A model generated the notes under the pieces. It was not told the origin of the DNA, did no database searches, and saw only the letters and a list, made by a program, of their open reading frames with translations. DNA of 39,085 nucleotides from an uncultured Mycobacteriaceae bacterium (lineage in GTDB: Bacteria; Actinomycetota; Actinomycetes; Mycobacteriales; Mycobacteriaceae). Where the stretch lies: the NCBI GenBank assembly GCA_902826815.1, contig CADEGF010000061.1:1-39085 (forward strand), in the 5' to 3' direction. How positions within the stretch are numbered: position 1 is the first letter of the stretch; every line of letters begins with the position of its first letter. A program made the translations under genes and the position numbers. Below are positions 5,336 to 39,085 of the stretch, piece after piece.

Positions 5336-6180
5336 TTGCGCGCCGACGTGAAGTCGCGCCTGTAGCGGGTCAACCCCTCCTGCATGACCGCCGCCACCAT
5401 TTCGCCGGACTGGGTGAAGATCTTGCCCTGACACAGCGACCTGCCCCCGGAGGACGACGGTGACGACTGGTCGTAGAGCAGCCATTCGTCGGCGCGGAAC
5501 GGGCGCATGAACCACATCGCGTGATCAAGCGAGGCCACCATCAGATGCTTGCGTTCCTCGAGGTGAGTCACCTGCGCCGAACCCAACAGCGTGAGGTCGC
5601 TCATGTAAGCCAGCGCGCAGATGTGCAGCACCGGATCGTCGGGCAACGGGTCGCGGTGCCGGAACCACACCTGCTGTTGGGAGGCCTTGCCCGGCAGAAG
5701 CTTGAGTTCGTCGCGCGGCACGATGCGGACATCCCACTCGGCGAACTGCTGAAAACCGGCGTCGTCGAACACCCCGCCCTTCGAGATGAAGTTGGGAAGG
5801 TCGTCGGGCGGAACCGCGAACGGAGCGGCGTCCTGATGCTCGATGCCGCTCTGATCGGACTGGAACGACGCCGACATCGAGAAGATGGTTTCGCCGTGCT
5901 GGATCGCGTTGACGCGACGGGTGACGAAGGAGCCGCCATCGCGGAGCCGTTCGACGATGAAGACTGTGGACGCCTGTGCGTCGCCCGGCCGCAGGAAGTA
6001 TCCGTGCAGCGAGTGCACCTGGAAGTTCGAATCGACGGTGCGCACCGCCGACACCAGGGACTGGCCCGCTACGTGCCCACCGAATGTTCTTTGCAGAAAG
6101 CCCGATTCGGGGCTGAACACGCCACCGCGGTAGATGTTGACCTCGAGTTGTTCGAGACCAAGGATCTCCTCGATCGCCAT
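5332..6180 (-). CDS. tesB: acyl-CoA thioesterase II
   Basis: The 282-residue protein is a double-hotdog thioesterase of the TesB family. The first hotdog contains [15 protein letters not shown] and the second [22 protein letters not shown], followed by [12 protein letters not shown], all typical of TesB. It hydrolyses acyl-CoA to free acid and CoA in the cytoplasm. It sits between pdxS and pdxT and overlaps pdxT by four bases (GTGA); the same gene order occurs in M. tuberculosis, where it is called tesB2. The link between a thioesterase and vitamin B6 synthesis is only positional. ATG 6180 begins the conserved [15 protein letters not shown] start. Confidence 0.93.
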
Positions 6181-20711: not shown

Positions 20712-22628
20712 CTACACCTTCAGCCGGCGCCGCCCGAGGTAGAGCGCCAGGCCGAGCGCCGCGATGCCGAGTCCGCCGACGACACCCCCTGCCGCCACCA
20801 GATACATCTGCGTGCGGTCGGCGCCCGCCGACTCGTCGGAGGCCAGCTGCATCCGGTAGTCACCGGGCAGCGGCGCCTCCTGCGGCTCACCGAGTCCCGG
20901 GTACTGCTGCGTGCGATGCACCTCGAACTGCCGCTCACCCGTCGGCGACGTGGCCCATTGACCCCAGGCCGGCGTCGCACCGTCGAGCAACACCTTCCGG
21001 CCGCCGTACTGAACGTCGTCGCCGAGGTCGACGATGTTGTTGACCCGGAACGGCTGGTAGGTCGCGTTCGAGTAGCGGACCTGCACGGGCACGTTGTTGT
21101 AGTTCAACAGCGGCGGCGGTGGCACGAACGGCGCGCCGATCGGTGGGATGTAGCCGCCGCCGAAGAAGCTGCCGACGGCGACGTCAGCGGCGAGGTTGGC
21201 GGCGTTGAGCACGACCGCCGTGAAGCTGTAGGCCGCCAGTGCGGCAGCGTCCACGACCACCCGCCCCAACGGCGGCAGGTACAGGATCCGAGGTGCGCGC
21301 TCGTAGATGTAGACGATCCGGACCGGGGCTCGGTAGGGGTTGAAGAAGACCGGCCGATACCAGTCGTCGTATTCGATCCACTTGCGATCCCATTGCCGGA
21401 CCCTCTTGTCCCAGTGCTTCTTGTTCCAATCCCAGTTGTGGTCACGATCGCGATCACGGTCGCGGTCTCGATCACGGTCGCGGTCTCGATCCCAGTCGCG
21501 GTCACGATCCCAGTCGCGGTCACGGTCGCCGATCGAAAACTCCGATCCCACATTGAATTCGGACTCGAACGGGCCGAGCTTCGTCTTGCTCTCGATGTTG
21601 AGCGCGCTCGACAGGAAGTTGACGTCGTCCTTCTTCGCCGGCTCCGGCTTCACCTCGACCGGCTTGGCCTGTCTGGCGAGTGCGATGTCCTGCTCCGGCG
21701 CCTCGAGCTTGTCCGGCGCGGCCATCGGCACCCGCTGCGCGGCCTTCATCGCAGTCGACGGGTCGGTGGGGTCGGACTTGGGCTCGTCGGTGTCTGGCGA
21801 CTGCTTGTCGCCTGGCACGTTCTCGTCGGCACCGGGTACCAGATTTTTCGGGACCTGCGTGTCCAGCTTCGGATCGCCGGGTTTGGCCGGCTGATCCACG
21901 GCGGGCAACGGTGCGGGCACGTCCGCGTTCGGCGCGTCGACCTTCGGGGCATCGGGCTTCGAGCCATCGGATTTGGGCGCGTCGACCTTCGGGGCGTCGG
22001 GCTTGGAGGCGTCGGGCTTGGGCTCCTCGACCGCGGGCACGTCGACTTTTGGTGCATCTCCGCTCGGCGCGTTGGCTTTTGGCGCGTCGACCTGGGGCAG
22101 GTCCGCCTTCGGTGTGTCGCCGTTAGGCGGGTCGGCCTTCGGAGACTCAACCTCGGGCACCTCAGCCTTGGGCGCGTCGACCTTCGGCGCCTGCACGACT
22201 CGCGGCTTCTCCTTCTTGGGCGCGGGCGCCACGATCTGCGGAGCGGGCGCTTCGGGCTGGGGCTGCGGCACCTGGATCTGCGGAGCGGGCGCCTGCGGCT
22301 GCGGTGCGGGTTCGGGCGCCGGTGCCGGCGCCTGGATCTGCGGGACCGGCGCTTGTTGGGGCGGCGCCTCGATCACTTGCGGCGGCGCCGGTGGCTGCTC
22401 CCGCACACGGGGCACCTCGACGGGCGCCTGCCGTTCGGGGGCGGCCCGCGGCGCCTCCGGAACGACGACTTCCGGCGTCGGGATGATCGGAATGCCCGGG
22501 TCGTTCTTATCGGGTTTGGCGAATGCCGGCGCGACTCCCCCGCTGAGCGCACTCAAAGAAACGATCGCTCCGGACGCCAGCACTGCGACAGCGCTTCGCC
22601 AGGAGCAGGTTTTAAGGGGGGCACGCAT
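20712..22628 (-). CDS. exported proline-rich, Asp-Arg-repeat protein
   Basis: A 638-residue protein. A signal peptide (about residues 1-37, ending APAFA) leads into ~250 residues rich in Pro, Ala and Gln and then in repeated DAPK/VDAPK units. A segment DRDRDWDRDRD and its continuation form an almost pure Asp-Arg run at DNA positions ~21441-21530. A globular ~200-residue region follows with WDKRVRQWDRKW, aromatic-rich strands and a Gly/Pro-rich stretch. The protein ends in a transmembrane helix plus RRRLKV, so it is probably anchored with its bulk outside the membrane. No LPXTG signal is visible. I do not recognise a named family; a wall-spanning structural or adhesion role is inference. Confidence 0.8.
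   Translation of the reverse strand: MRAPLKTCSWRSAVAVLASGAIVSLSALSGGVAPAFAKPDKNDPGIPIIPTPEVVVPEAPRAAPERQAPVEVPRVREQPPAPPQVIEAPPQQAPVPQIQAPAPAPEPAPQPQAPAPQIQVPQPQPEAPAPQIVAPAPKKEKPRVVQAPKVDAPKAEVPEVESPKADPPNGDTPKADLPQVDAPKANAPSGDAPKVDVPAVEEPKPDASKPDAPKVDAPKSDGSKPDAPKVDAPNADVPAPLPAVDQPAKPGDPKLDTQVPKNLVPGADENVPGDKQSPDTDEPKSDPTDPSTAMKAAQRVPMAAPDKLEAPEQDIALARQAKPVEVKPEPAKKDDVNFLSSALNIESKTKLGPFESEFNVGSEFSIGDRDRDWDRDRDWDRDRDRDRDRDRDRDRDHNWDWNKKHWDKRVRQWDRKWIEYDDWYRPVFFNPYRAPVRIVYIYERAPRILYLPPLGRVVVDAAALAAYSFTAVVLNAANLAADVAVGSFFGGGYIPPIGAPFVPPPPLLNYNNVPVQVRYSNATYQPFRVNNIVDLGDDVQYGGRKVLLDGATPAWGQWATSPTGERQFEVHRTQQYPGLGEPQEAPLPGDYRMQLASDESAGADRTQMYLVAAGGVVGGLGIAALGLALYLGRRRLKV
21441..21530. repeat. hexanucleotide tandem array coding Asp-Arg
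   Basis: About 90 bases of degenerate 6-base units (GGTCNC/GATCNC type on the plus strand) encode alternating Asp-Arg with occasional Trp in the minus-strand protein. The array is prone to slippage, so its length may vary between strains. It is coding, not a CRISPR or intergenic satellite. Confidence 0.75.
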
Positions 22629-36748: not shown

Positions 36749-36821
36749 GCGGATGTAGCGCAGTTGGTAGCGCATCACCTTGCCAAGGTGAGGGTCGCGG
36801 GTTCGAATCCCGTCATCCGCT
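36749..36821 (+). tRNA. tRNA-Gly(GCC)
   Basis: Acceptor stem GCGGATG/CATCCGC, anticodon stem TCACC/GGTGA with loop TTGCCAA (anticodon GCC), and T arm GCGGG-TTCGAAT-CCCGT. No CCA is encoded. Confidence 0.96.
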
Positions 36822-36848
36822 CGATGGTGCAGTCGCATCAACCCCAGC

Positions 36849-36919
36849 GGTGGAGTGGCCGAGTGGTGAGGCAACGGCCTGCAAAGCCGTGCACACGGGT
36901 TCGATTCCCGTCTCCACCT
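36849..36919 (+). tRNA. tRNA-Cys(GCA)
   Basis: Acceptor stem GGTGGAG/CTCCACC, anticodon stem ACGGC/GCCGT with loop CTGCAAA (anticodon GCA), and a normal T arm around TTCGATTC. No CCA is encoded. It lies 27 bases after tRNA-Gly. Confidence 0.96.
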
Positions 36920-36933
36920 CCAAGTTTTTCCTG

Positions 36934-37008
36934 GCGCGATTAGCTCAGCGGGAGAGCGCTTCCCTGACACGGAAGAGGTCACTGGTTCAATCCCAGTATC
37001 GCGCACCA
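36934..37008 (+). tRNA. tRNA-Val(GAC)
   Basis: Acceptor stem GCGCGAT/ATCGCGC, anticodon stem CTTCC/GGAAG with loop CTGACAC (anticodon GAC), T arm ACTGG-TTCAATC-CCAGT, and CCA encoded at 37006-37008. It is the last tRNA of the cluster and borders the TIR/HEPN module, so its 3' end is a candidate attachment site. Confidence 0.96.
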
Positions 37009-37055
37009 GCATTACCGCAGTTCAACAGTAGTATTTAGCTCCAACATCTCGGCTT

Positions 37056-37082: not shown

Positions 37083-38087
37083 ATGACGATCCCGAATTCG
37101 GACCCTCAGTACGACGTGGCGCTGTCATTCGCTGGGGAACAACGGGATTACGTCCGTGCCGTCGCGTCCGAACTGGCAAAGCACGGCGTCAGCTACTTCT
37201 ACGACGAGGACGACGAGGTAGCACTCTGGGGCAAGAATCTCGCCGAGGAGTTGCAGCGCATCTACATGACGGCCTCCAACGTCGTCGTCATGTTCATCTC
37301 GGAGGACTACGCCAGGAAGTCATGGCCTCGGCATGAGCGCCAGTCGGCGATAGCCCGAGCGATAGAGGAGCGTCGCGAGTACATCCTCCCGGCGAGGTTC
37401 GACAACGTCGAGTTGCCGGGCCTGGACCGGAGCTTGGGCTACCTCCCGCTGGCGAACCGACCCCCCGCCAAGCTTGCCGAGAACATCATGACCAAGCTGG
37501 TGCGGTTGGGTGGCAGAGTCGAGCCGCCGAAACCTCAGTTTCGTGCAAAGGACGCGGAAGGCCCAAAAGTGTTCCGCGTCAGCGTCCACGACGAAAGCGG
37601 AACTCCGGTCGATTCGGCGACCGTCCAATTGGTGGCGCACAACGGCACAGCGACCAACCGCAAGACAAACTCCGATGGCATTGCGGAAGTACCTGCCGAT
37701 GTCCGCAGATCGGTCGCAGTGCTGGTCGCCCATCCTGACTATCGGGCCGGGTTCTATCGTCAGCACGACAACGGAAGCGACTTAGACGTGACGCTGCCCT
37801 CGGGCGCGGGCACTCACAGCGTGATCTTCAGCTCCACCGGCCATATCCCTGGTTTTCGGCCTCGCCTGAATCCGATTGGCGACAACCACGACACCGAAGG
37901 CTTTCCGCGACGCACCTACATGTACGTGGACAACGGCTCAGTTGACGGACGGCCAAGCCAGCCGTCGTTCTTCGCTGTCGGTAGGCCGATGATGCTGGAA
38001 GACAGCGACGGAAACCAGGTGCGTGCGACTTGCGTGGGCTTCGTCGGGGATAGCACCGTTTGGGAATACGAATTTCCAGACGCCTGA
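37083..38087 (+). CDS. TIR-domain protein with C-terminal beta-rich region
   Basis: A 334-residue cytoplasmic protein. Residues ~8-142 form a TIR domain (YDVALSFAGEQRDYV; then DEDDEVALWGKNLAEELQRIY, with Glu55/56 in the position of the catalytic glutamate; then VVVMFISEDYARKSW). Bacterial TIR domains of this type hydrolyse NAD+ or make cyclic ADP-ribose signals. Residues ~160-240 resemble a carboxypeptidase-regulatory/transthyretin-like beta sandwich (FRVSVHDESGTPVDSATVQL), and a further beta-rich ~90 residues follow. That C-terminus could sense an infection cue. It is the first gene after the tRNA cluster, 74 bases from tRNA-Val. A role in abortive anti-phage defence is inferred. Confidence 0.85.
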   Translation: MTIPNSDPQYDVALSFAGEQRDYVRAVASELAKHGVSYFYDEDDEVALWGKNLAEELQRIYMTASNVVVMFISEDYARKSWPRHERQSAIARAIEERREYILPARFDNVELPGLDRSLGYLPLANRPPAKLAENIMTKLVRLGGRVEPPKPQFRAKDAEGPKVFRVSVHDESGTPVDSATVQLVAHNGTATNRKTNSDGIAEVPADVRRSVAVLVAHPDYRAGFYRQHDNGSDLDVTLPSGAGTHSVIFSSTGHIPGFRPRLNPIGDNHDTEGFPRRTYMYVDNGSVDGRPSQPSFFAVGRPMMLEDSDGNQVRATCVGFVGDSTVWEYEFPDA

Positions 38088-38140
38088 ACGGCATCTGCGG
38101 TTTAGCCATGCAGTTGGACAGGTAAATCTACGATTCCGCC

Positions 38141-38794
38141 GTGAGCCTTGCCCTTACCCTCAACGTCGTAGCACCCTTCCGCCGCGCCATGGAACATTGC
38201 GACAATTTGGTGTTAGTTCATCAGCGGTCAGGCACAGGCACGCGCGGACGCCGCAGGACCGAGATATCTGTGAATCGCGCGGTCATCGTTATCGCCATCG
38301 CCAGTTGGCAAGCGGTTGTGCAGGATATGACCGAGTTTCTACTTGAGCGGCATATGCCTGCCCCGACCGAGCCAAATTACGGAGTGGCACGGCTGATTAA
38401 GGGCCAAGTCGACGGCGCGATAGGCCGCTTCTCGACACCGAATCCTGAAAACACGCGAGAGCTACTCAAGACTGTCGGATTCGATCCGCGCCCATTTTGG
38501 ACCTGGACTGCCGGTCCGCCAGGTAGTCCCGTCACGCTGCGCCCAGCCGATGTCGAACAACGACTTCGGACCTGGCTAAAGGTGCGTCACGCCATCGCAC
38601 ACGGCGAGGAGAAGCTGCCGGAAGTCGATGTCCTGCAAGCGGTACGACAGCAGCAGGTGTCCTCTGTGGATGGCCCGACCGTCCGACTCTATGACGCAAA
38701 GCAATGTGTTTCCTTCGTTCGAAAGCTCACTGACGTGACCATTAACGGCATTCGTTCGGAGATAAAGCCCCCGCCGACGCCCTCGTCGCCATAG
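38141..38794 (+). CDS. HEPN-domain protein (RiboL-PSP-HEPN-like)
   Basis: A 217-residue protein starting at GTG 38141. An alpha-helical block (NRAVIVIAIASWQAVVQDMT) and the C-terminal R-x4-H motif, Arg149-HAIA-His154 within VRHAIAHGE, mark a HEPN domain of the RiboL-PSP-like group. HEPN proteins with this motif are usually metal-independent RNases used in toxin-antitoxin and anti-phage systems. It follows the TIR gene by 53 bases on the same strand. Whether it is an effector beside TIR or part of one complex cannot be read. The proline-rich end (KPPPTPSSP) looks disordered. Confidence 0.7.
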   Translation: MSLALTLNVVAPFRRAMEHCDNLVLVHQRSGTGTRGRRRTEISVNRAVIVIAIASWQAVVQDMTEFLLERHMPAPTEPNYGVARLIKGQVDGAIGRFSTPNPENTRELLKTVGFDPRPFWTWTAGPPGSPVTLRPADVEQRLRTWLKVRHAIAHGEEKLPEVDVLQAVRQQQVSSVDGPTVRLYDAKQCVSFVRKLTDVTINGIRSEIKPPPTPSSP

Positions 38795-38823
38795 CCTGCG
38801 CCGACGCGTGGTGGAGCGCGGTT

Positions 38824-39063
38824 GTGGACGACATTCTCGGTGACGTGTATCGACGCATCGCACTGCACAGTTCAGCAATCATGAAGCTTGCGACGGACCC
38901 GAACCTCTCCGCTCTGGCTCGAAAGATCCAAAAACTCACCAGATCGGAGTTCAACACCTACTGCGATGCGATCACGGAAGTTGGAGACATCGCTGACGAG
39001 GTTGAAGCGGCAACGACCAGGCTTAGGCTGTTTGTCCACGGTCACGTAATTCCCCAGGGGTAG
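38824..39063 (+). CDS. short third gene of the TIR/HEPN module, 3' end in repeat
   Basis: A 79-residue frame from GTG 38824, 29 bases after the HEPN gene. It is helical with alternating hydrophobic residues (RIALHSSAIMKLATDPNLSA, then FNTYCDAITEVGDIADEVEA), as in a small bundle or antitoxin-like protein. I do not recognise the family. Its last codons and stop (GHVIPQG*) lie in the first copy of the 18-bp repeat, so the original gene was probably longer and was truncated by insertion of a mobile element. The coding call is moderate. Confidence 0.5.
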   Translation: MDDILGDVYRRIALHSSAIMKLATDPNLSALARKIQKLTRSEFNTYCDAITEVGDIADEVEAATTRLRLFVHGHVIPQG

Positions 39064-39083
39064 CCGTCACGTAATTCCCCAGG
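39041..39083. repeat. 18-bp direct repeat, putative mobile-element end
   Basis: GTCACGTAATTCCCCAGG occurs at 39041-39058 and again at 39066-39083, a 25-base period, right at the window edge. Closely spaced multiple terminal repeats of this size are a feature of IS21-type element ends. No transposase is visible because the window stops, so the element type is only a hypothesis. Confidence 0.45.
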
Positions 39084-39085
39084 TC

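Follow-up and report, generated by a model that had tools for sequence, protein, structure and literature searches.

Do three genes beside a tRNA cluster in an uncultured Mycobacteriaceae bacterium form a conserved defense system, or did they become neighbors by circumstance? The window analyzed here is the whole 39,085-bp stretch of contig CADEGF010000061.1 (C61), complete, from assembly GCA_902826815.1, a genome of 6.87 Mb in 141 contigs. Near its right end, open reading frames (ORFs) for a TIR protein (ORF1), a HEPN protein (ORF2), and a short protein (ORF3) follow the tRNA genes. We consider it likely that two independently mobile defense-type genes met in a tRNA-Val (GAC) hotspot, where a remnant gene truncated by an IS21-family insertion sequence (IS) follows them. 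The features on which this reading draws are as follows.

36749-36822: tRNA-Gly.
36849-36922: tRNA-Cys.
36934-37008, plus strand: tRNA-Val (GAC), called by ARAGORN; last of the tRNA-Gly/Cys/Val cluster, bordering the variable region.
36981-37020, plus strand: candidate attachment core, comprising the tRNA-Val 3' end and 12 further bases; a copy is present on contig C70.
37083-38087, plus strand: ORF1, TIR protein of 334 amino acids.
38141-38794, plus strand: ORF2, HEPN protein of 217 amino acids, RiboL-PSP-HEPN type.
38824-39063, plus strand: ORF3, a 79-amino-acid frame whose native part stops at 39032.
39028-39032, no strand assigned: CTGTT, candidate target-site duplication; on contig C53, it recurs immediately past the IS end.
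39033-39085, no strand assigned: istB-side terminus of an IS21-family element, in which GTCACGTAATTCCCCAGG occurs twice; C61 breaks off at this point.

The original prediction, made from the window alone, read the three genes as a compact TIR, HEPN, and small-gene module on transferred, AT-rich DNA. Its placement of three codirectional ORFs after the tRNA-Gly/Cys/Val cluster was accurate, and GC content is indeed lower in ORF1 (0.613), ORF2 (0.592), and ORF3 (0.550) than the mean of 0.660 (standard deviation [SD], 0.017) for 26 long window ORFs, a reference set chosen greedily by length that may include spurious frames. The predicted AT richness at wobble positions was seen in ORF2 (third-position GC, 0.638) and ORF3 (0.65) relative to 0.789 (SD, 0.075) but not in the TIR gene (0.755); the ORF3 figures take in its IS-derived part.

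The module itself did not survive comparison with relatives: HEPN loci have other neighbors, TIR loci lack such a HEPN, and ORF3 is cut by the IS. The test covered nine HEPN loci, each spanning 10 to 14 kb, from two nearly identical Rhodococcus linear plasmids (63 to 64% identity), a Mycobacterium prophage-like region (60%), Compostimonas (51%), G460 (47%), three Streptomyces plasmids (39, 38, and 30%), and G508 (27%). Five of seven plasmid HEPN records were fetched; the other two (H6 and H7) share the query part and identity of H5. By tblastn, relatives of the ORF1 TIR or of ORF3 were found at none of the nine loci (lowest E value, 0.6). A Pfam scan of neighboring ORFs at eight of them (L019 was left out as nearly identical to L018) returned at least 1 TIR_2-positive ORF of 94 among the best 25 of 62 families, beyond which weaker TIR matches are possible. 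This neighbor, missed by tblastn, encodes a TIR-NB-ARC-TPR protein and is separated by 2.4 kb from the HEPN most distant from ORF2 (27% identity; L080), a proximity that we read as chance. At that locus (L080, 6684-12503), a ParA-type ATPase gene immediately precedes the distant HEPN, and the TIR-NB-ARC-TPR gene is located upstream in the same orientation.

The reciprocal comparison covered six loci at which either the TIR or its C-terminal domain has a relative (Sinorhizobium, four members of the genus, and G918; 4.7 to 13 kb, two shortened by contig ends), at none of which eight HEPN queries detected a HEPN of the ORF2 kind (lowest E value, 0.11). A conserved TIR, HEPN, and ORF3 system was therefore rejected, as adjacency is not kept in relatives at the nine HEPN and six TIR or C-terminal-domain loci. 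The original prediction had named homologs that never co-occur as the outcome that would speak against it; apart from one weak exception, the distant L080, our result comes close to this. HEPN relatives instead occur next to a phage serine integrase, on linear plasmids of Rhodococcus, and on plasmids of Streptomyces. On two of the last-named plasmids (L020, 7026-12608; L021, 1371-5937), they adjoin large genes that are related to one another, some of this stretch being annotated as integrases in L020, and a related small gene.

Transfer of DNA into the tRNA site, also part of the original prediction, was supported. Similarity to the window ends at 37006-37029, the 3' end of tRNA-Val, in all 21 relatives fetched; this set includes G013 and leaves out G015, a strong match near a contig end, while G003 and G005 gave weak matches only. 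Because the downstream DNA differs in every one of the 21, transfer into a hotspot is supported, and the DNA 3' of tRNA-Val (GAC) is best described, from these alignments, as an integration hotspot. Of the two genes that open the C53 core, one or both lie downstream, at various distances, in 8 of the 21 relatives. Ten hotspot neighbors were chosen by eye from 101 ORFs (apart from L106 4856-5452, taken from another list), a choice that does not amount to a count of defense genes. Pfam families were matched by eight of the 10. Two genomes have tyrosine integrases, and one of those two also has PIN; AAA_21 and an opposite-strand DUF6602 were seen in one genome, HTH/M78 together with SLFN_AlbA_2 in one, and RlaP in one. 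At the G001 tRNA-Val site (L105, 1547-4975), an AAA_21 ATPase gene and an overlapping 303-amino-acid frame without a Pfam match accompany the DUF6602 gene on the opposite strand, possibly another defense-type set.

Elsewhere in the same genome, a 40-base copy of the tRNA-Val 3' end (97.5% identity) lies beside a tyrosine integrase on C70. On this contig (L054 and L055; 5491-5518, 20001-21146, and 21233-21272), the integrase is accompanied by conjugation-type genes, and the tRNA-Val (GAC) 3' end is present twice (21233-21272 and 5491-5518). The C70 stretch may share its attachment core with the window tRNA-Val, although we do not place it there. As the far end of the island, C70 was not supported, because what G013 has downstream of this tRNA is found on C53, and the left end of C53 is an IS end with a matching CTGTT.

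ORF3 is not the ordinary short gene that it first appeared to be. From 39033, its frame runs within the IS21-family terminus, which supplies the last ∼10 codons, leaving at most 69 of 79 whole codons native. The terminus on C61 has two copies of the 18-base repeat GTCACGTAATTCCCCAGG, which contigs C53, C100, and C107 also have at their ends. The same repeat is located just past the istB stop in two Rhodococcus plasmids (L074 and L075), the two opened of 45 plasmid records matched. Based on these terminal repeats beside istB, the terminus at 39033 is an IS21-family end. A second type of end is present on C53, C100, and C107; in one Rhodococcus plasmid, 23 of its bases recur ∼1.4 kb past istA, from which an IS110 gene separates them. 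On C61, CTGTT comes just ahead of the IS, and on C53, it comes just after. On C107 and C100, the end type of C53 is followed by AATTC and GTATC, respectively, so that one of three candidate partners matches CTGTT. From 5191 onward, C53 contains DNA seen after tRNA-Val in the relative G013. Because of the CTGTT duplication and the synteny with G013, C53 is the probable continuation of C61, and the order is most likely tRNA-Val, TIR, HEPN, ORF3 remnant, IS21-family element, and C53, with the joint falling outside the assembly. C122 encodes an IS21-family istA/istB pair and lacks these terminal repeats in the 4000 of 6500 bases read.

A former toxin-antitoxin-like pair of HEPN and ORF3, its small partner broken by the IS, would fit the 29-base gap between the two genes and the ribosome-site-like GGTGGAG 7 bases ahead of the ORF3 start. 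HEPN toxins are also often paired with a partner antitoxin, as in HepT-MntA. We nevertheless regard this history as unlikely. Relatives of ORF3 were found neither beside the nine HEPN relatives nor in 72,556 plasmid records, and no small neighbor is common to the HEPN loci, except in the two near-identical Rhodococcus plasmids. The adjacent MNT nucleotidyltransferase that marks HEPN-MNT pairs was also not seen, since neither ORF3 nor ORF1 has such a Pfam match at an E value of 1.

It is quite improbable that the genes form a two-gene signaling system, in which an NAD-derived messenger of the TIR protein would activate the HEPN RNase or one protein would restrain the other. The genes are adjacent and codirectional with a 53-base gap, both are below the window mean in GC content, and a TIR-NB-ARC-TPR gene lies near a distant HEPN relative. 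Against this stand the absence of ORF1 TIR relatives from all nine HEPN neighborhoods, the different architecture of the TIR_2-positive neighbor (at least 1 of 94 ORFs at eight loci, within the best 25 of 62 families), the failure to find an ORF2-type HEPN at the six TIR or C-terminal-domain loci (where E 0.11 was the best chance match), and the lack of a Pfam-detectable ligand-binding domain in ORF2. A functional pair peculiar to this lineage, with a TIR messenger switching on the HEPN and the unnamed C-terminal domain of ORF1 serving as infection sensor, seems very unlikely.

ORF1 was correctly recognized as a TIR protein: it matches Pfam TIR_2 at an E value of 1.7e-16 and 61.3 bits, above the curated cutoff of 28. 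Three regions can be delineated.

Residues ∼12-126: TIR domain, with W81-x3-E85.
Residues ∼161-238: Ig/CarboxypepD_reg-like region, with a Pfam match under the CarboxypepD_reg cutoff.
Residues ∼245-330: unnamed C-terminal domain, without a Pfam match.

ORF1 aligns to TIR entries 7uwg, 7uxr, and 8g83. With the NAD hydrolase AbTIR (7uwg and 8g83), it shares an alignable TIR region (residues 7-104) and the W-x3-E motif, to which W81-x3-E85 aligns; it differs in having the Ig-like region and unnamed C-terminal domain after the TIR. PMC10022894 gives E208 as the catalytic residue of AbTir, which, by our residue count, would be the glutamate aligned with E85 of ORF1. ORF1 is most likely a TIR NADase, with NAD+ cleavage as its predicted activity. 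A structure predicted from the single sequence had a mean predicted local distance difference test (pLDDT) score of 43 and was not used. NCBIfam and PHROGs yielded TIR-domain matches or matches under the cutoff and nothing more. Searches for TIR relatives returned one phage record (TIR domain only) and none in viral contigs. Of 296 further genomes in the genus, 4 were matched at an E value of 1e-20, again over the TIR domain only.

None of the named systems in PADLOC was accepted as a match. An orphan Thoeris sensor, in which ORF1 would be a ThsB working with a ThsA encoded elsewhere, agrees with the shared TIR domain and a PADLOC ThsB profile match (E value, 1.2e-8) and is highly improbable: PADLOC PDC-S66 (1e-13) and Pfam TIR_2 score better, Pfam ThsB_TIR reaches only E 0.18, and no ThsA-like gene was seen adjacent to ORF1, among the C61 neighbors, or among the five ORFs scanned on C53 to the left of its core genes, with no ThsA search made elsewhere in the genome.

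ORF2 contains the R-x4-H motif expected of a HEPN protein, R149-H-A-I-A-H154, encoded at 38585-38602. R149 and H154 are invariant in all eight aligned rows (the window protein and seven relatives), and the motif also occurs in L079 and L080. The match of ORF2 to Pfam HEPN_RiboL-PSP (PF18735) covers profile positions 119-162 of 191, with an E value of 3.4e-6 and 27.5 bits, 0.9 bits under the cutoff of 28.4; ORF2 and all seven aligned relatives match this family at E values of ≤0.01 (best, 2.8e-7). Its predicted fold is helical and HEPN-like, and HEPN chains rank first in structure comparison. ORF2 lacks the L-PSP fusion and the ParB neighbor that Anantharaman et al. 2013 (PMC3710099) give as contexts of the family. 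The same paper describes HEPN domains as mostly metal-independent RNases that are central to abortive infection (Abi) and toxin-antitoxin systems. Most likely, ORF2 works by itself as a HEPN RNase that needs no metal, and RNase activity is predicted for it. PF18735, the Pfam HEPN family of ORF2, is also given for four defense systems, PD-T4-2, PD-T4-5, PD-T7-3, and ApeA, in PMC10952713; unlike these, ORF2 was matched by PADLOC to RTasHEPN only (E value, 0.0089).

No HEPN relatives were detected in phages or viral contigs, and no match to ORF2 in NCBIfam or PHROGs. At an E value of 1e-5, ORF2 matched none of the 296 further genus members; one Mycobacterium relative (L016) was found in another collection. 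Against PDB sequences, the HEPN profile retrieved two PARP4 sequences only (E values, 0.69 and 0.86), which we judged to be chance. The host genome encodes a second PF18735 HEPN gene (C1:89-655, minus strand; L108), which scores 98.6 bits, well over the cutoff. Decaying mobile-element debris without present function, which the IS21-family insertion in ORF3 might suggest, is hardly credible given intact TIR and HEPN frames that keep their catalytic motifs.

If two independent genes did meet at this site, ORF1 and ORF2 probably act by abortive infection, each alone and neither needing the other. Infection would be sensed, perhaps via the Ig-like and C-terminal domains of ORF1, whose TIR domains would assemble and either degrade NAD+ or convert it into a cyclic ADP-ribose signal; NAD+ loss or the signal would then stop growth before the phage could spread. 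ORF2, once triggered, would cut cellular or phage RNA.

The C-terminal part of ORF1 was found in two other proteins only, a Sinorhizobium plasmid protein and an AAA_14/DUF4143 protein, the latter in 1 of 275 other genomes of the phylum with a two-sequence profile. As a single-sequence query, it recovered the window itself and nothing else among 394 genomes of the class. The profile found no relative in viral contigs, and the C-terminal part of L087 retrieved none in phages and, among plasmids, the Sinorhizobium protein again and no other. The Ig-like and C-terminal domains stand behind three N-terminal types: TIR alone (window, ∼37560-38084), KGGVGR-ATPase/TIR (L022, 4798-7002), and AAA_14/DUF4143 (L087, 5131-6813). 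The second of these, from Sinorhizobium chiapasense plasmid pSchITTGS70c, has the same order of TIR, Ig-like, and C-terminal domains as ORF1, with 36% identity across the last two. It differs in its N-terminal KGGVGR-type ATPase, its C-terminal extension, and its own TIR, which lacks a W-x3-E alignment; a HEPN of the ORF2 kind was not found nearby.

Among the mycobacteria examined, the tRNA-Val site is a hypervariable integration site where defense-type genes can gather, and adjacency in such a hotspot should not be taken for a system. ORF1 and ORF2 belong to known kinds, and the part best worth following is the unnamed C-terminal domain, a candidate sensor or assembly module that deserves a name.
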